From Eubacterium sp. (GTDB taxonomy: Bacteria; Bacillota; Clostridia; Oscillospirales; Acutalibacteraceae), in NCBI GenBank assembly GCA_022511225.1, contig JAFLRZ010000006.1, positions 38,620 to 102,619 on the forward strand: a stretch of 64,000 nt of DNA. Reading direction: 5' to 3'. Shown one piece after another: positions 46,449-55,309 of the stretch; within the stretch, counting starts at the first letter, position 1; each line of letters begins with the position of its first letter. The notes under the pieces were generated by a model. That model worked only from the letters and a program-made list of their open reading frames with translations, had not been told where the DNA came from and searched no databases. The position numbers were made by a program, and so were the translations under genes.

Positions 46449-46474
46449 TGTAAGGTTTTTGCAGTGTAATCGTA
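46449..46474 (+). promoter_or_regulatory. Candidate ECF-type promoter upstream of the sigma gene
   Basis: TGTAAG (46449-46454), 16 nt, CGTA (46471-46474); compare the SigW-type TGAAAC-N16-CGTA arrangement. Confidence 0.5.
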
Positions 46475-46522
46475 CTAACTTACGTAGCGGTAGCTATAAG
46501 AGGTGGAAGGAGGTGCAGTATT

Positions 46523-47044
46523 TTGTCTGACAATGCAACAAAGCAGGAGGCTACACGGCTGTTTAATATTGCTTATGAAGAGTCGTATACTTCGATTTAC
46601 AAGTTCTGTTTGTCTAAGCTTAAGAACACTCACTTAGCTGAAGATTGCGTTCAGGAAACATTTTTGGTTTTCTACAACAAGCTTCTTACAGGCGAGGAAA
46701 TTTCATACTCAAAGGCATTCCTGCTAAAAACGGCAAATAACTTTATTCTAAAGAAATTCAGTGAAGTAAAAAAGTCGTATAACACAATAAGCATTGACGA
46801 GGTTATCAACATTCCTACCCAAAATGAAGATATCGACGACAGGCTTACCTTTGAACAGTATTCAAAGCAGATAAGTGCTGCACTTTCGGACAAGGATGCA
46901 GAGTTGTTTTCAATGAGGTACATAGAGGAATTAAAAATTGATATGATTGCCGAGAGATGCGGTATGAGCATTACGGCAGTCACTACAAGATTATCCCGAA
47001 TCAGAAAAAAATTACAAAAACTATTTGAAAATGATTTAAGATAG
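46523..47044 (+). CDS. ECF-type RNA polymerase sigma factor (TTG start)
   Basis: Sigma-2-like HLAEDCVQETFLVFYNK; sigma-4 HTH DMIAERCGMSITAVTTRLSRIRKKLQKL; strong SD ggaaggaggtg. Confidence 0.9.
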   Translation: MSDNATKQEATRLFNIAYEESYTSIYKFCLSKLKNTHLAEDCVQETFLVFYNKLLTGEEISYSKAFLLKTANNFILKKFSEVKKSYNTISIDEVINIPTQNEDIDDRLTFEQYSKQISAALSDKDAELFSMRYIEELKIDMIAERCGMSITAVTTRLSRIRKKLQKLFENDLR

Positions 47045-47072
47045 AAAAAATCAAATAGAGAAAGGAGTAGTT

Positions 47073-49211
47073 ATGGCGCACGTTAATATTAACAAAAAAG
47101 CTCTTGATAACATTAATAGCGAAAATCTTTCGTCAGTGCTTAATGATATGATTGATAAAGAGCTGTCAAAGAGTGCTGAAAATATAGACACAGTATTTGT
47201 TGATGAGTGCGTTAATGCTTTACTTGAGCTTGAACGCGAAAATAATAGCGCAGCAGCAATAGTTCCTTTAATTAGCAGTGATAAATTTCTTAAAAAGATT
47301 ACAAATCAAAAATCAGCAAAAGGCTTTAAGAGCCTTAACACTTTTGCAAGAGTTGCAGTTGTAGCGGCAATTATTGCAGGCGGTACGATGACTGCCAATG
47401 CAGCAGTAGAAGCAGTTACCGGAGTTAACGTAATACAGATGGTAGCAGACTCAGTTGAGAGCAAGCTCATAGACTGGGGAATTATGAAAACCTCTATAGA
47501 AAACGTAGATGCAGGATTTGACGACGATGATGCTACTACAGAGCCTGTAACAGAGCCAACCACTGAACCGACTACTAAGCCGACTACCGAGCCAACAACA
47601 AAGCCTTCTACTACTCAGCCGAGCGGTATAGAAAATGTGGACGGTGGTATGGACGACGATGAAGAAACTACTACTCAGTTCAGCGGTATAGAGAACGTGG
47701 ACGGTGGTATGGATGATGATGAAGAAACCACCACTCAGTTCGGCGGTATAGAGAACGTGGACGGCGGTATGGACGATGATGATGAACCTACTACCGAGCC
47801 GAATAAGCCTTCTAAGCCTTCAACAACTCAGCAGACTACTGCTAAGCCTGCTATTGAGCAGACAACGAAGCCTGAAGAATCTGCCGTATTTACTCAGCTG
47901 AGAGTAGAATATGATGACAGCTTCAAGTTTGATTACATTTACGGCGAGAAGCTGAGCTATGATGGAATGAAGCTCATAGCAAGCTACAGTGACGGCAGCG
48001 AAAAGGAAATTGACCTTGCCGACTGTAAGTACACAACGGCGATAGACACTACCGTTACTGCCGATTATGAGCTCACTATTCTTTATAAGAGCAGTAGTAT
48101 TAAAATCAACGTTACAGTCAGACCTGATGAATTTACAAGAGGCTCAGAGATTTGCAGTAACAGTCTGTTTGAGTATCTCCTTACGGAGCAGGGTGCTTAC
48201 GTAACGGCATATAAGGGTTACTCGAATTACTTAGAGCTTGATGAAATTGACGGCAACAAGGTAGTTGCAATCGGTCCGTCGTGCTTCAGGGGTAAGGGTA
48301 TACAGAGTATTACCGCACAGAACGTTACAAGAGTTTACGGCAACGCCTTTGAAAACTGCCAAAGACTTACTGAATGTTATATCCCGTCTGCTGAATATAT
48401 CGGCGATTATGCTTTCAGCGGATGCGAGTTTATAGACAGAGCAGTTTATTCCGACAAGCTTGAATATATCGGCAAGGGATCGTATAATAAAACTGCAATT
48501 ACGGAAATTGTAATTCCAAGCGGTGTTACAGAAATCCCCGACTATGCATTCAATCAGTGCGAAAGCCTTGTGAGTGTAACGATGCTCGGCAAGGTTACTT
48601 CTATCGGAAGCTTTGCATTTAATGAATGTGTTAAGCTTGAAACCGTGACAGGCTGTGCCGATATAACTTCAATCGGAGCATTCGCATTTGCAGATGACGA
48701 GCTTGTAAACTTTGACACCTTCCCGCAGAAACTTGAAAGGGTCGGCGAAAGCGCACTTTACTTCTGCCAGAACTTGGAGATTGGCGCTCTTCCGTCTGCG
48801 ATTAAGGAGCTTGCACCTAATGCATTTGCCTACTGCTTAGGTCTTACCGAGATTGAGATACCTGAGGGTATCACCGTTATCCCTGAAAACTGCTTCAGGG
48901 CAACAAATGCAGAAAAGATTATTCTGCCTGAGGGCGTAACGGAAATCGGCAAGTATGCATTTATGAGCCACAAGGCAACGTCAATCGTGCTTCCGAAATC
49001 TCTTAAGATAATTAAAACGTACGGACTTTACTCTGTGATGCTTCGCACGGTATATTTTGATAGAAATGTTGAAGAAATAGGCTCTAACGCATTTTACGCA
49101 GGACGGTCAGTAGTCTTTTACGTATATGAGGATACCGTTCCTATGGACTATGCAATAGAATATGATATAAAATATATACTGCGTGATGAATCTGCAGAGA
49201 TAGGAGAGTAA
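47073..49211 (+). CDS. Predicted anti-sigma-like single-pass protein with extracellular Ig-like and BspA-type LRR_5 domain
   Basis: Immediately downstream of the sigma gene; ~95-aa cytosolic N-terminus, TM (ARVAVVAAIIAGG), T/P/E linker, acidic repeats, Ig-like domain, LRR_5 repeats (IPDYAFNQCESLVSVTM...). Confidence 0.75.
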   Translation: MAHVNINKKALDNINSENLSSVLNDMIDKELSKSAENIDTVFVDECVNALLELERENNSAAAIVPLISSDKFLKKITNQKSAKGFKSLNTFARVAVVAAIIAGGTMTANAAVEAVTGVNVIQMVADSVESKLIDWGIMKTSIENVDAGFDDDDATTEPVTEPTTEPTTKPTTEPTTKPSTTQPSGIENVDGGMDDDEETTTQFSGIENVDGGMDDDEETTTQFGGIENVDGGMDDDDEPTTEPNKPSKPSTTQQTTAKPAIEQTTKPEESAVFTQLRVEYDDSFKFDYIYGEKLSYDGMKLIASYSDGSEKEIDLADCKYTTAIDTTVTADYELTILYKSSSIKINVTVRPDEFTRGSEICSNSLFEYLLTEQGAYVTAYKGYSNYLELDEIDGNKVVAIGPSCFRGKGIQSITAQNVTRVYGNAFENCQRLTECYIPSAEYIGDYAFSGCEFIDRAVYSDKLEYIGKGSYNKTAITEIVIPSGVTEIPDYAFNQCESLVSVTMLGKVTSIGSFAFNECVKLETVTGCADITSIGAFAFADDELVNFDTFPQKLERVGESALYFCQNLEIGALPSAIKELAPNAFAYCLGLTEIEIPEGITVIPENCFRATNAEKIILPEGVTEIGKYAFMSHKATSIVLPKSLKIIKTYGLYSVMLRTVYFDRNVEEIGSNAFYAGRSVVFYVYEDTVPMDYAIEYDIKYILRDESAEIGE
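47622..47801 (+). repeat. 60-bp in-frame tandem repeat (3 clear copies)
   Basis: Units start at 47622, 47682 and 47742, encoding (S/G)GIENVDGGMDDDEETTTQF; a divergent founder-like copy (SIENVDAGFDDDDATTEP) lies near 47494. Confidence 0.9.
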
Positions 49212-49213
49212 TT

Positions 49214-52200
49214 ATGAAAAACATTAAAAAAACCATAGCATTTCTTCTTGCAGTAGTTATGCTTCTGTCTGCAATTCAGATAACAGCCTTTGCAGATGAA
49301 ATCAGATATGACGACAGCGGCTCAAATGATAAAGTCAGCTGGAGCTATACGGCAAGTACGGATACGCTTTATATAAATGGTGACGAAATTCAGTTAATGG
49401 ATTACGGCGCACTGCCTACGTATAAAGACGGTGAGCTTGTTAAAAATCTGCGCTTCTCTCATCTTGTATTCGGCAAGGACGTAAGAGAAATAATCGACCC
49501 CGGTTATGCAGGCTACAAGCAATGCTACGATATCAATAGATATGCATATAAGGACAGCAGATTTGACATTACCTTTGAAAAGGGCAGCGTGCTCGAGACA
49601 ATCGGTGATATTGCTTTCAGCTGCTCCACTGTAACATCAGTTACACTTCCTGATGACCCCGGTCTTTCAATTACAATCTGTACTGAAGCATTTGCAGAAT
49701 CACCCTACCTCAAAAGCTTTACTATGTATGACAACGTTTACGAGTTAGGTGAAATGGCATTTATATATGACATTGCGCTCGAAGAAATCCGCTTGTCCTC
49801 TAAATTAAGCGAGCTTGATGAGTATATGTTCGCAAATTGTGAGTCACTTAAAGAAATTGATATTCCGGATGGCGTCGTTTCAATCGGAGTATACTGTTTT
49901 CAGGAATGTTATTCTCTTGAAAGTATAAATCTTCCGAGCTCACTTGCAGTTATCAGTGAATCTGCATTTGAGAGCTGTACCTCGCTTAAGAGTATGGTTA
50001 TTCCGCAGGGAGTTAAAAAACTTCCTAACAATGTATTAAGTAACTGCACAAGCCTTGAAAGCCTTGATCTCGGCAATATCACGAGTATGGGCTCATACAC
50101 GCTCAAAGGATGTACGGCACTTAAGTCAGTTACTATTTCTGATAGCTTAACATCTATTCCTAAGTTTGCATTTGACGGTCTTTCATCACTTGAAACTGTT
50201 GATTTAGCTAACGTAGTAACAATTAATGGTTATGCATTCCAGTACTGCACATCGCTTAAAAATATTGATTTACGAAATGTAGTAACAATCAATAATTATG
50301 CATTTCAAAGCTGTACAGCACTTGAATCGGTAGTTATCCCCGATACTGTTACAGGGCTCGGCGTATGTGCATTTTATAACTGTAAAAATCTTTCTGACGT
50401 TACACTCTCAAAGAATATTTCAATTATACAGTCAAACTGCTTTTCAAATTGTAAGCTGAGAGATATTGAACTCCCTGAGGGAGTTACCAAAATCGGTTCA
50501 TACGCATTCTCTAATGGCTTAAGCGGAAATATAACCTTCCCTTCAACACTCGAATCTATAAATGAATATGCATTTTTAAACTGCGACCTTAAATCAATCG
50601 ATTTCGGTGAAGAGGGTAAATCCCTCAGCATTGATAAAAACGCTTTTATGAATAACGAAAATCTCACAAGTGTAACGTTCACTCCGAGAGTTATTTCTAT
50701 AGGAAATGAAGCATTCAGCGGATGCTCAAGAATTAAAACCGTTAATTTTGAAACGAGAGAAAACGGCTCAGTTGTCGAAGGTGTGAATATAATTGGTTCC
50801 GCTGCCTTTAATGCAACAGATATCGAAACACTTGTATTGCCTGAAACTCTCAATGACATCTACGACAGTGCATTTGCATATATGGCAGAGCTTAAGTCAA
50901 TCGATATGTCAAAAACTAAGATTACAAAGCTCCCCGTATCACCGTTTTATTTCGATGATAAGCTTACGGAAATTAAGCTCCCCGAAGCATTGACGGAAAT
51001 CGGAAATTATGCATTCGCAACTGTACCTATCAAAACTCTTAATATTCCGGCGTCTGTTAAAACTCTCAAGGACTACGCATTTTCTTTGTCAAATCTTGAG
51101 GAAATCACTATTCCGAATACTGTAGAAAATATCGGCGAAGGTCTTTTTGAAGACACTAAAAATCTTAAGAGTGTAAACATCGAAGAAGATATTACCGAGA
51201 TTTATCCGTATATGTTTAACGGATGCATAAATCTTGAAACGGTTAATATCCCTGAAAGCGTTACTGAAATCGGCGAGGGTGCATTTGCAGGCTGCTCAAG
51301 TCTTAAGCTTGAAAGCGTTCCCGACCGTATTACGTTAATTGATGACTATGCGTTTTACGGCGCTTCCGTAGATTTTGAACTTCCGTTTTTCCTCGATTAT
51401 GTCGGTGAATCTGCATTTGAGGACTCTACAATTAAAAAAGCACGTTTGGCTAAGAAAGGAATCGAAATCTGTGCCAATGCATTTAAGAATGCAAGCGAGC
51501 TTAACGAGGTAGTGCTTTCTGAAACTCTTTCTCAAATTCCTGATTACTGTTTTTACGGTACTGCTATTACGGAAATTACAATTCCTGACAGAGTAACAAG
51601 AATCTGTGACTATTCATTTTCAAAAACACCGCTTAAGAGCGTTAATTTCTCGAAAAATCTTGTGCACATTAATTTAAATTCGTTTGAAGGTTGTACTGAG
51701 CTTAAAGAGGTTGACCTTTCAGGTACAAAGCTTACATATATCAATGCTTACGACTTCAAAAACTGTACGTCACTTGAAAAGGTTGTTCTGCCGAATGACT
51801 TAACGCAGATAAGCGTTGACGGTTTTTACGGATGTACAGCTCTTTCTGACATTGTATTTCCTGATAAATTAAAATATATTGATGGAGATGCGTTTTATAA
51901 CTGTTCAAGTCTTAAAAGCATAAGGCTTCCTGAAAGTCTTAGCACCATTGGTAAAGATGCATTTTACGGCTGTCCGCTTACTGCTGTTGATATCTATAGT
52001 AAAAATATCACTTTAGATCATCTTAACAATTCAAAAATCGGATTTACGGCTGCAGGTAAGCAGACTAATCTTGTAATAACCGGATATGCTGACTCAAGTG
52101 CTCAGAAGTACGCTAAAAATAACGGCTTTAAGTTCTACGCAATCGGCTATTATGACGAGTTTAATACCGAGGTACCTAACAAAGGTACAGTCGGCGCCTT

Positions 52201-55200
52201 TGCAAATTGGTACGTTAACGGCACTGAGCTTCATATCTCAGCAAAATCCTATGGAAATGGCGTTATAAAGTCAGCAGATTTTAATGCCTATTTAGAAGAT
52301 AAAGATACGACTGTAACTTACACCCTTTCTCACATAATTGAGGCTAAGGGCATTACAAGGCTTGTTGTAGAGGACGGTATCACTTCACTTCCCGATAATC
52401 TTTTCACAAATTCTAAATATGAGAAAGACTTTGATAATTCATCACTTACCGAGGTTTCACTTCCTGATACACTTAAAACTATCGGAAGCTACACCTTTGC
52501 AAACAGCAATATCAAGTCAATCGTTGTTCCTGATTCAGTGTCCTCCATTGGTGCTTATGCCTTTTACCAAGCTGATTTGTCAGAGGGCGTTCAGCTTGGT
52601 AACGGCATAACGGAAATTCCGGCATACGCCTTTGCAGGCACTTCACTCAAAAGATTTGAAGTTCCTTCAAGCATAACAAAAATTGACGAGGGTGCATTCC
52701 TCGACTGTCTTGATATGACATATATTACAGTGCCTTCATCAGTTACTACAATCAATGAAGCTACAAGAACAACAAGACCTATCGGCTTTACAAGCAAGGG
52801 CGTTCTCCTTTCAGGCTTGTTTATGGATGTAAGACCTGATTCCGAGGGACTTAGGTATGCACAGCTTTACAGCATAGATCACGACAGAACCCTTGACGGC
52901 AATACGCTTTACGGCAGATTCGGTGACGTATCGGGCAACACGTGGCACTATGACGTTAAAAGCAAAACTATGTATCTCAACGCTCCTGTTTTCACGAGCA
53001 ACAACACCCTTTACTACATTGACGGCACGGCACTTAAGTCAGACGAGTTTGACGTTGAGCTGCTTATTGTTGACTGCGAAACCTCAATTGACGGCTACAA
53101 GTCAGCAAGCCCGTTTGCAAAAATAAATCCTAAAAGGATTTCTCTTCCAAACTCTGTGAGATACATTTCCGACTATGCCTTTGCAGGGCTTACAAATCTC
53201 ACATCAATTACCATCCCTGACAGTGCTATAAGCATTTCAGCCACAGCCTTCAAAAACTGCAAGAATCTTAAGGGTATTAACTTTGGTAACGGTATCAAGA
53301 GGATTACAACAGGTATCTGCCAGAATATGAATTCACTCCAGGCAGTTGAATTCGGAAGCTCTACTCAGTCTATTGAGTATGCTGCATTCTACAACTGTGT
53401 GAATCTGCAGAGCGTGCACATTCCAAAGTCTGTAGAAGATATCAGGGAGCATGCTTTTGAAAACTGCTATGGACTTATCAGCATTGTTAACGACAGTAAG
53501 GCAACCGTTCGTGATAGAGCATTTAGTAATCTTCCTCTCCTTGAAGAGATCGTTCTTAATAACAATTTCGTATCTTTTAAGGAAGACTTTTACGGTGTAT
53601 TTGATAACTTCACTTCTAAGAGCAGAAATAATCTCGTTATCAAATTTATGAGCGATGATGCAGTTGCAGACGTTGCAAGCTACGTGTTTACTAAGGCATC
53701 AAAATATTACTTCGGTCCTAAAGTAACTGACGTAAACTTCAGATATGATTATGATCCTGTAAAGTTTAGTTCAATTACGGTTGACAGCGAAAATCCTGTT
53801 CTTTATGCCGACAACAATTGCCTTTACAAAAAGACTAAAGACAGCAATGGTAACGAAATTGATACTCTTCTCATTGCACAAAATACAACAGGCACAATCT
53901 CGATAAAGGTTGGAACAGACGCAATCGGTGAAAATGCATTCTTTGCAAACGAAGCAAGCAGTGTTCTGCTTCCAAGCAGTGTAACTTCAATCGGCAATAA
54001 TGCATTTGAGAGGTGCAGCGAGCTCAAAACAGTAAGTATGCCTGAGTCACTTAATACTATCGGCGAGGCTGCATTTAAGGATTGTGTAAGGCTTAAGACT
54101 ATGAACATTGCATCTGCTCGTACAATCGAGAGTAATGCATTTGACGGATGTACAAATCTTTCAAGTGTAATTCTTCCTGAAAATCTTGAAAGCATCGGCG
54201 ACTACGCATTCAGAAACTGTATCTCTGTTATCGGTATGGTCATTCCCGAAGGTGCAAAATCTATCAGCTCAAACGCATTCAACGGCTGTATAGCTTGTGA
54301 TGAAATCTACATTTGGGATACTGCTATTAATGATAATGACGACAGATTTACAAACTGCGACAATCTTATGATTCATACTATGGCAGGCTCAAATGCTTAT
54401 GCATACGCAAGAGAGTATGATATTCCTTACTGTGCTTATACAGACAGCGACATATTCTATGATTTATGTGCAATGAAGCTTGATGTTTATGCAGGATACT
54501 TAGGCTTCTGCGATGGCGGTCACGGTGATATTCAGTATCTTACAGTATACGAGGCAGGCTGTGATCTTGACGGATTTATTATAGGTGTTTGTGAATACTG
54601 TTCTGAAATTCTTGAAGAAATCCACACAGAAGCAACAGGACACAATTACTATATAGCAGCAGATATTCCTGCTACTGAAACTACTCAGGGCACTATAAAG
54701 TACACCTGCACAAACTGCAACGACACTTATTACACTTACACTCCTGCACTTAATCCTGATTCTCAGCCGACAACAGTTACAGTCAGCGGTACAATAACGA
54801 TTGCGATAAACGGTGATGCAACTTCAGGCAACGTGCCTGTATACAGTGCAAGCATTATTTTAGACGGCTACAAGGTTGCTACTACTGATGAAGACGGTAA
54901 ATTCAGCTTATCACTTCAGACAGGTGTTCACGAAATAGCAATCCGCTACAGCTACGGTATTGAAAGAACAGTTTATATCGTTGCTGAGGATAAGGACTTT
55001 GACTGTGGAGCTATCCCAATCATTGCTTGTGACTGGGACAAGAACAACGTTATTGATGAAGAGGACGTAGAGCTGTTTAAGCTGGTTATTTCCTCAAAGC
55101 CGTCTGATCCGTCTTTCTTAAGATTTGTTGACCTCAACGGCGATAACTACATCAATGCTAAGGATATGGCTATAATCAGAAATTGTATGAAGTATGATCC

Positions 55201-55237
55201 TGTGAAGTATAATTCCTTAGTAATTAAGGCGTCATAA
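49214..55237 (+). CDS. Giant secreted BspA-type LRR_5 protein with C-terminal dockerin
   Basis: Signal peptide MKNIKKTIAFLLAVVMLLSAIQITAFA; dozens of LRR_5 units; C-terminal dockerin repeats DWDKNNVIDEEDVELFK and DLNGDNYINAKDMAIIRNCM. Confidence 0.9.
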   Translation: MKNIKKTIAFLLAVVMLLSAIQITAFADEIRYDDSGSNDKVSWSYTASTDTLYINGDEIQLMDYGALPTYKDGELVKNLRFSHLVFGKDVREIIDPGYAGYKQCYDINRYAYKDSRFDITFEKGSVLETIGDIAFSCSTVTSVTLPDDPGLSITICTEAFAESPYLKSFTMYDNVYELGEMAFIYDIALEEIRLSSKLSELDEYMFANCESLKEIDIPDGVVSIGVYCFQECYSLESINLPSSLAVISESAFESCTSLKSMVIPQGVKKLPNNVLSNCTSLESLDLGNITSMGSYTLKGCTALKSVTISDSLTSIPKFAFDGLSSLETVDLANVVTINGYAFQYCTSLKNIDLRNVVTINNYAFQSCTALESVVIPDTVTGLGVCAFYNCKNLSDVTLSKNISIIQSNCFSNCKLRDIELPEGVTKIGSYAFSNGLSGNITFPSTLESINEYAFLNCDLKSIDFGEEGKSLSIDKNAFMNNENLTSVTFTPRVISIGNEAFSGCSRIKTVNFETRENGSVVEGVNIIGSAAFNATDIETLVLPETLNDIYDSAFAYMAELKSIDMSKTKITKLPVSPFYFDDKLTEIKLPEALTEIGNYAFATVPIKTLNIPASVKTLKDYAFSLSNLEEITIPNTVENIGEGLFEDTKNLKSVNIEEDITEIYPYMFNGCINLETVNIPESVTEIGEGAFAGCSSLKLESVPDRITLIDDYAFYGASVDFELPFFLDYVGESAFEDSTIKKARLAKKGIEICANAFKNASELNEVVLSETLSQIPDYCFYGTAITEITIPDRVTRICDYSFSKTPLKSVNFSKNLVHINLNSFEGCTELKEVDLSGTKLTYINAYDFKNCTSLEKVVLPNDLTQISVDGFYGCTALSDIVFPDKLKYIDGDAFYNCSSLKSIRLPESLSTIGKDAFYGCPLTAVDIYSKNITLDHLNNSKIGFTAAGKQTNLVITGYADSSAQKYAKNNGFKFYAIGYYDEFNTEVPNKGTVGAFANWYVNGTELHISAKSYGNGVIKSADFNAYLEDKDTTVTYTLSHIIEAKGITRLVVEDGITSLPDNLFTNSKYEKDFDNSSLTEVSLPDTLKTIGSYTFANSNIKSIVVPDSVSSIGAYAFYQADLSEGVQLGNGITEIPAYAFAGTSLKRFEVPSSITKIDEGAFLDCLDMTYITVPSSVTTINEATRTTRPIGFTSKGVLLSGLFMDVRPDSEGLRYAQLYSIDHDRTLDGNTLYGRFGDVSGNTWHYDVKSKTMYLNAPVFTSNNTLYYIDGTALKSDEFDVELLIVDCETSIDGYKSASPFAKINPKRISLPNSVRYISDYAFAGLTNLTSITIPDSAISISATAFKNCKNLKGINFGNGIKRITTGICQNMNSLQAVEFGSSTQSIEYAAFYNCVNLQSVHIPKSVEDIREHAFENCYGLISIVNDSKATVRDRAFSNLPLLEEIVLNNNFVSFKEDFYGVFDNFTSKSRNNLVIKFMSDDAVADVASYVFTKASKYYFGPKVTDVNFRYDYDPVKFSSITVDSENPVLYADNNCLYKKTKDSNGNEIDTLLIAQNTTGTISIKVGTDAIGENAFFANEASSVLLPSSVTSIGNNAFERCSELKTVSMPESLNTIGEAAFKDCVRLKTMNIASARTIESNAFDGCTNLSSVILPENLESIGDYAFRNCISVIGMVIPEGAKSISSNAFNGCIACDEIYIWDTAINDNDDRFTNCDNLMIHTMAGSNAYAYAREYDIPYCAYTDSDIFYDLCAMKLDVYAGYLGFCDGGHGDIQYLTVYEAGCDLDGFIIGVCEYCSEILEEIHTEATGHNYYIAADIPATETTQGTIKYTCTNCNDTYYTYTPALNPDSQPTTVTVSGTITIAINGDATSGNVPVYSASIILDGYKVATTDEDGKFSLSLQTGVHEIAIRYSYGIERTVYIVAEDKDFDCGAIPIIACDWDKNNVIDEEDVELFKLVISSKPSDPSFLRFVDLNGDNYINAKDMAIIRNCMKYDPVKYNSLVIKAS
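55022..55237 (+). other. Type I-like dockerin module (within the CDS at 49214)
   Basis: Two EF-hand-like Ca-binding loops, DWDKNNVIDEED and DLNGDNYINAKD, about 35 residues apart. Confidence 0.8.
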
Positions 55238-55259
55238 AAAGACATCCACGCATTGAAAA

Positions 55260-55309
55260 TGATATGCACCTACAAAAGCTTCTGGCTTTTGGGGTGCATA
55301 TTTTTTATG
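55260..55309 (+). terminator. Intrinsic terminator of the LRR operon
   Basis: tgatatgcacc tacaaaagc ttct ggcttttg gggtgcatattttttatg. Confidence 0.85.

Follow-up and report, generated by a model that had tools for sequence, protein, structure and literature searches.

Among the questions raised by this stretch of DNA, the central one is what a sigma factor gene, a gene for a membrane protein with a leucine-rich repeat (LRR) ectodomain and a gene for a giant secreted LRR protein ending in a dockerin do side by side. An earlier note on the 64,000-nt stretch analysed here (the window) had drawn an analogy with the SigI/RsgI pairs of cellulosomal clostridia, which sense polysaccharide, and with dockerins that bind scaffoldins. 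We consider it probable that these genes form a one-component transmembrane signalling operon which also governs a regulon of LRR-bearing subtilases; the circuit looks like a surface-sensing device for protein targets, and not like a plant-fibre (cellulosome) sensor.

Table 1. Features of the operon, in window coordinates
Feature	Position	Strand	Basis or detail
Putative sigma-dependent autoregulatory promoter	46449..46477	+	-35 TGTAAGGTTTT 46449-46459, 12-nt spacer, -10 CGTACTA 46471-46477
ECF sigma factor, 173 aa, TTG start	46523..47044	+	regions 2 and 4 of sigma
Putative anti-sigma factor, 712 aa, single-pass membrane protein, Big_3 + LRR_5 ectodomain	47073..49211	+	
Cytosolic N-terminal domain, residues 1-90, presumed sigma-binding	47073..47342	+	family match: none
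Transmembrane segment, about residues 91-112, positive-inside	47343..47408	+	hydropathy
Extracellular T/P/E/D linker, 4 copies IENVDxG(M/F)DDD(E/D)	47493..47794	+	tandem repeat
Big_3 Ig-like domain, residues 287-349	47931..48119	+	Pfam PF07523 3e-9
LRR_5 (BspA-type) ectodomain, about residues 375-700	48195..49172	+	Pfam PF13306 9e-70
2007-aa secreted LRR_5 protein, Cys/His-rich module + C-terminal dockerin	49214..55237	+	Pfam, orthologues
Cys/His-rich module of giant, residues about 1735-1840	54416..54733	+	invariant Cys/His in orthologues
Dockerin type I, two Ca-binding-type loops	55031..55183	+	Pfam PF00404, residues 1940-1990
Intrinsic terminator	about 55261..55309	+	RNA fold, then T run

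The three open reading frames described before (sigma factor, membrane protein and giant) were recovered with the same frames and domains (Table 1). The TTG start of the sigma gene is preceded by GGAGG, and its product consists of regions 2 and 4 only, with matches to Sigma70_r4_2 (PF08281, 2e-11), to Sigma70_r2 (PF04542, 3.7e-5, 0.1 bit below the cut-off) and to TIGR02937 of NCBIfam (6e-17), and no further Pfam domain. Pfam and NCBIfam thus place it among the ECF sigma-70 factors, for which the group IV membership criteria are given in PMC8103513, and no SigI model occurs among its best 25 NCBIfam models. ECF systems are mostly autoregulated and their anti-sigma factors co-transcribed (PMC8103513); the membrane protein is encoded immediately 3′ of the sigma gene both in this operon and at 12 other loci, and also in paralogues. 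It has about 90 cytosolic residues, of which 71-90 include six K/R and no D/E, followed by a single hydrophobic segment (about 94-112, hydropathy maximum at residue 94) and no other transmembrane candidate.

The giant protein starts with a signal peptide and carries LRR_5 in 14 stretches detected by Pfam. Its ATG lies 2 nt past the stop of the preceding gene, so that the close packing reported earlier holds, with a gap of 2 nt instead of the 3 nt then given. The dockerin scores 25.1 bits against a cut-off of 22.9 (2e-5) and is present at all 12 other loci, in orthologues of 1099-2393 aa, among which the acidic positions of Ca-binding type are invariant (D1940, D1951, D1973, N1975, D1977 and D1984 being the dockerin residues kept throughout). 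The invariant positions of the giant cluster in this dockerin and in the Cys/His-rich module, where C1766, H1770, C1783, C1793, C1796, H1810, C1832 and C1835 are unchanged in 13 orthologues; the module, which has no NCBIfam match, possibly binds metal. The terminator proposed behind the giant is borne out by a predicted fold of -29 kcal/mol (shuffles -13.5 ± 2.6, z = -5.9) and a following T run.

Pairs of sigma and LRR genes, which the earlier note had suggested seeking in related genomes, do occur there. The N-terminal 153 residues of the membrane protein were searched in 80 genomes (79 of them relatives, with MAG-type assemblies) and gave matches in 26 others, all from the same genus. The order sigma, LRR membrane protein and large LRR-dockerin protein is found again at 12 loci, which belong to 11 other genomes of the genus and have differing flanks, and the arrangement is therefore not due to chance. 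A genome-contig search for related loci returned only distant LRR matches lacking the N-terminal domain (N-domain). As far as sequence can tell, the anatomy and the kept gene order agree with the postulated operon, sigma/anti-sigma-like, surface-sensing and equipped with an LRR ectodomain.

The sigma orthologues are preceded by TGTAAGGTTTT-N12-GTAC or close variants, resembling ECF-type promoters. In the window, the start coordinate of the earlier note (46449) is the first base of this -35-like element, whose matrix score of 26.9 makes it the sole match of 12 or more in the 64 kb, the site itself being in the training set. With 3 mismatches allowed, a stricter sigma-promoter pattern returned from the home genome the sigma site, two sites on contig C1, 28-29 nt before LRR genes, and three matches on C4, C10 and C14 that we discard as chance, being intragenic and unrelated. 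A related site before a third C1 gene was spotted by eye. The refined pattern TGTRANNTTTT-N12-GTAC has exactly four matches in the home genome, namely the sigma operon and, at C1:17652, C1:50592 and C1:152429, the three C1 genes, each 28-47 nt before the start codon, and its backwards control has none there and seven in 60 genomes. These three genes, out of the four S8 genes of the home genome, encode secreted S8 subtilases with the D, H and S catalytic motifs, followed by LRR_5.

As the refined pattern was shaped after the sites had been seen, a separate test used a matrix trained on sigma promoters only, scored upstream of 70 S8 genes from 15 operon carriers and 15 non-carriers (S8 genes occur in 12 of the latter). 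All seven top scores (17.4-26.9) belong to carriers, and the next one, 10.9, to a non-carrier. Among LRR-subtilases with complete starts, 6/14 score at least 17 in carriers versus 0/30 in non-carriers (p = 4e-4, Fisher); with the home genome excluded, the figures become 3/11 and 0/30 (p about 0.015, calculated by hand). The S8 and LRR_5 domains of the motif-bearing subtilases of relatives were confirmed by Pfam. On both strands of 434 kb of non-carrier DNA the matrix score nowhere reaches 17; mononucleotide shuffling gives about three chance matches per genome at this threshold (an estimate from two shuffle matches), and therefore the argument is carried by position upstream of a gene, not by score alone. 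Three carriers have a promoter variant of their own common to sigma gene and LRR-subtilase: G007, where the unusual TGTGACAAAAC...AAAAGTACATACAT stands before its own sigma gene and before a further LRR-subtilase (G007:C9), and G039 and G083.

The motif precedes a subtilase in only 5-6 of the 15 carriers, several of which have motif-free subtilases. Four other carrier matches comprise one intragenic site, two before other secreted proteins and one upstream of another sigma gene. The match at G014:C1 is rejected as a promoter, being intragenic, and those at G007:C27 and G026:C102 are doubtful, as the subtilase behind them has no LRR and its orthologues from seven other carriers are without the motif. 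The predicted targets include no carbohydrate enzyme. The regulon is predicted to consist of the LRR-subtilases and the sigma operon itself, its scope being that of the exact motif. In two species an additional secreted LRR_5 gene lies 5′ of sigma (L095 550-2262, L096 632-2320), and it is upstream of that gene that the sigma-type promoter now stands (a strong one in L095, a weak one in L096), a relocation that supports the element as the promoter of the operon.

Regulated proteolysis is the usual route by which membrane anti-sigma factors are inactivated. We propose that the cytosolic N-domain of the membrane protein would hold the ECF sigma factor inactive until, at the cell surface, the Big_3 and LRR_5 ectodomain encounters its ligand, which is most likely a protein or a target bearing peptides, and that this contact would inactivate the anti-sigma factor, probably by proteolysis, by analogy with site-1/site-2 release (PMC12203970). 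The freed sigma factor would then transcribe its own operon, a positive feedback that would also yield the giant LRR-dockerin protein, and, through TGTAAGGTTTT-N12-GTAC promoters, the genes for secreted LRR-subtilases. The output would be a coordinated set of adhesin-like and protease proteins bearing LRR_5. Polysaccharide sensing with a link to a scaffoldin, as first suggested, found no support, since the home genome shows no cohesin and the extra predicted targets are LRR-subtilases and not carbohydrate-active enzymes; a protein target seems likelier because those targets are proteases and carbohydrate enzymes were not found. A comparable case is that of the ECF sigma/RsiV systems of Bacillus and Clostridioides, where a membrane anti-sigma factor controls an ECF sigma factor and the protein lysozyme is recognized by the ectodomain of RsiV as its receptor (PMC5014341). 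Two further features of the RsiV system, positive autoregulation and regulated proteolysis, are proposed here, whereas the ectodomain and N-domain belong to other families and the predicted targets are LRR-subtilases and the giant LRR-dockerin protein, with none related to lysozyme.

What is new here is the ECF-type promoter 5′ of sigma together with the predicted LRR-subtilase regulon, which would connect secreted proteases with LRRs and a giant LRR-dockerin protein to a clostridial surface sensor of gut/rumen type, and which offers a short, concrete list of promoters for testing. In the open-licence literature searched, we found no anti-sigma factor that senses through leucine-rich repeats.

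The LRR_5 fold shared by sensor and effectors, noticed earlier for the giant, now extends to the three subtilases. The same repeat type (PF13306) and secretion characterize the BspA-like surface adhesins, but here the fold also occurs in a transmembrane transcriptional sensor and in proteases. Such sharing could mean that the circuit monitors its own envelope, the LRR of the anti-sigma factor sensing the secreted LRR proteins of the cell or their attachment with no outside ligand. The presence of LRR_5 in the sensor and in every firmly assigned target, the translational coupling of giant to sensor across the 2-nt gap and the conservation of the operon as a unit all fit this reading, which we nevertheless judge unlikely, given that the sensor LRR is not specially similar to those of the regulon (several non-regulon LRR genes have equal or better phmmer E-values) and that an LRR-LRR interaction finds no support. 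The same resemblance of non-regulon LRR proteins to the sensor leaves the earlier suggestion of a common ligand for sensor and effectors without support from sequence.

A regulator of cellulosomes akin to SigI/RsgI, whose LRR ectodomain would sense polysaccharide, to be degraded by the dockerin protein once bound to a scaffoldin, is in our view quite unlikely, even if the likeness goes some way. As in Clostridium thermocellum, a sigma factor is paired with a membrane anti-sigma factor having a cytosolic N-terminal domain, at least one transmembrane segment and an exchangeable C-terminal extracellular domain, here for binding, and a product bears a dockerin; there are several paralogous sets per genome; and positive autoregulation, known for SigI (PMC4711584), and surface or extracellular targets sharing module types with the sensor are both predicted here. 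The SigI regulons were themselves found through the same promoter logic (PMC4711584). The parts differ, however: the sigma factor is of ECF type and SigI is absent from its best 25 NCBIfam models; RsgI_N matches none of 22 N-domain members at E up to 0.1; only about 30 residues, without a Pfam domain, separate the transmembrane segment from the T/P/E linker, too few to accommodate the autocleavage domain of RsgI; Big_3 and LRR_5 take the place of a CBM, of which Pfam finds none in the ectodomain; the promoter elements are TGTAAGGTTTT/GTAC instead of AAA/CGWA (PMC4711584); and subtilases are the predicted targets.

The scaffoldin that should accompany such a regulator was sought as well. With a threshold as loose as E = 1, cohesin (PF00963) still has 0 matches in the home genome, which is 98.65% complete, and because of this the giant, dockerin and all, is rejected as a cellulosome member; a cohesin could still exist if it had diverged very far or lay in the 1-2% that the assembly lacks. 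Only four of the 15 operon-carrying genomes encode a cohesin above the cut-off; these four speak for the cellulosomal reading. Secreted LRR proteins with terminal dockerins are known from Ruminococcus flavefaciens FD-1, in which peptidases carry dockerins too (PMC2930009), and most dockerins of R. flavefaciens LRR proteins bound no tested cohesin (PMC5301203), a further point against that reading and a precedent for an orphan LRR-dockerin, although the proteins of FD-1 belong to a cohesin-rich cellulosome. Control of these proteins by an ECF/anti-sigma pair with an LRR sensor was not found in the open-licence literature. Our preferred reading, a sensor of protein targets, suggests that some 'cellulosome-like' parts serve such targets. 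Dockerin-like CDF(D/H)xSGTISSGDA repeats, near-identical to each other, end two large secreted proteins whose genes are neighbours elsewhere in the home genome (C23:121000-134000, L078), where cohesin goes undetected.

The N-domain would be the heart of the proposed circuit. Its alignment (22 members) has invariant M1, E30, K33 and C46, with no consistent Pfam or NCBIfam match and no significant PDB-sequence match, and its single-sequence AlphaFold model is poor (pLDDT 59.6) and for that reason unfit for a fold search, so that the assignment of an anti-sigma function rests on genomic pairing. This pairing is near-obligate. A separate check took in loci of relatives that are more distant or shorter; of the 21 N-domain genes there, 17 directly follow a detected sigma gene, and at least two of the four with none detected lie at contig ends. 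Sigma and N-domain also diverge together (distance correlation r = 0.82 over 22 pairs, 0/5000 permutations), a value to which co-inheritance alone also contributes. Sitting directly 3′ of a sigma gene almost wherever it is found, the N-domain is very probably a new anti-sigma domain. That the membrane protein is just a co-expressed surface adhesin beside a constitutive or otherwise controlled sigma factor, as the missing anti-sigma family and the poor structure prediction would allow, is very unlikely, for the N-domain pairs with ECF sigma genes outside the genus as well as in three paralogue groups, co-diverges with them, and is fused to unrelated ectodomains (LRR, Flg_new/List_Bact repeats or short tails), the pattern expected of a shared sigma-binding module.

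In the second paralogue group, sigma genes accompany the N-domain fused to proteins of 855-1411 aa and the giant gene is absent; of four ectodomains scanned, three contain Flg_new (List_Bact_rpt) repeats and the other Big_3. The pair of this group in the home genome (C19:19036-19868; L073 8037-11868) has an ectodomain of Flg_new (List_Bact_rpt) repeats and fn3. Its -35 and -10 elements (TGTCAAC...GGACTAC) differ from those of the window operon, and the code TGTCAACTTTT-N12-GGACTAC occurs in the home genome only at the C19 sigma gene. Paralogous sensor/sigma pairs with distinct promoter codes are comparable to SigI/RsgI, with other building parts.

The linker of the membrane protein is rich in T/P/E/D and has four [SG]IENVDxG(M/F)DDDE copies, three of them in tandem (60-nt period, 3.1 copies). 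Its motif IENVDGGMDDDE (window 47493-47794) is repeated in the anti-sigma linkers of both paralogue groups: in the window, in L073 (the C19 paralogue), in L086 and L097 of G008 and in L104 of G024. It was not seen in any other ORF of the fetched DNA, and paralogues within one genome share the variant of their species, such as GIEDMNVGFDDD in G008. The motif could be a cleavage site, a recognition site or a product of gene conversion. A feedback switch, in which the LRR-subtilases of the regulon would use their LRRs for docking and would themselves be the site-1 protease that cuts the anti-sigma factor, for example at IENVDGGMDDDE, is a long shot; if it held, sigma activity would report extracellular subtilase activity or substrate supply.

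Outside the genus, a profile search found short forms of the N-domain in a few genera (8 of 293 further genomes of the order), mostly adjoining sigma genes. A third pair of the home genome, on C21 (L074 3867-5713), consists of a sigma gene, a 261-aa membrane protein with a distant N-domain and a 167-aa secreted protein, the latter two without a Pfam match, and is preceded by a small helix-turn-helix-like gene.
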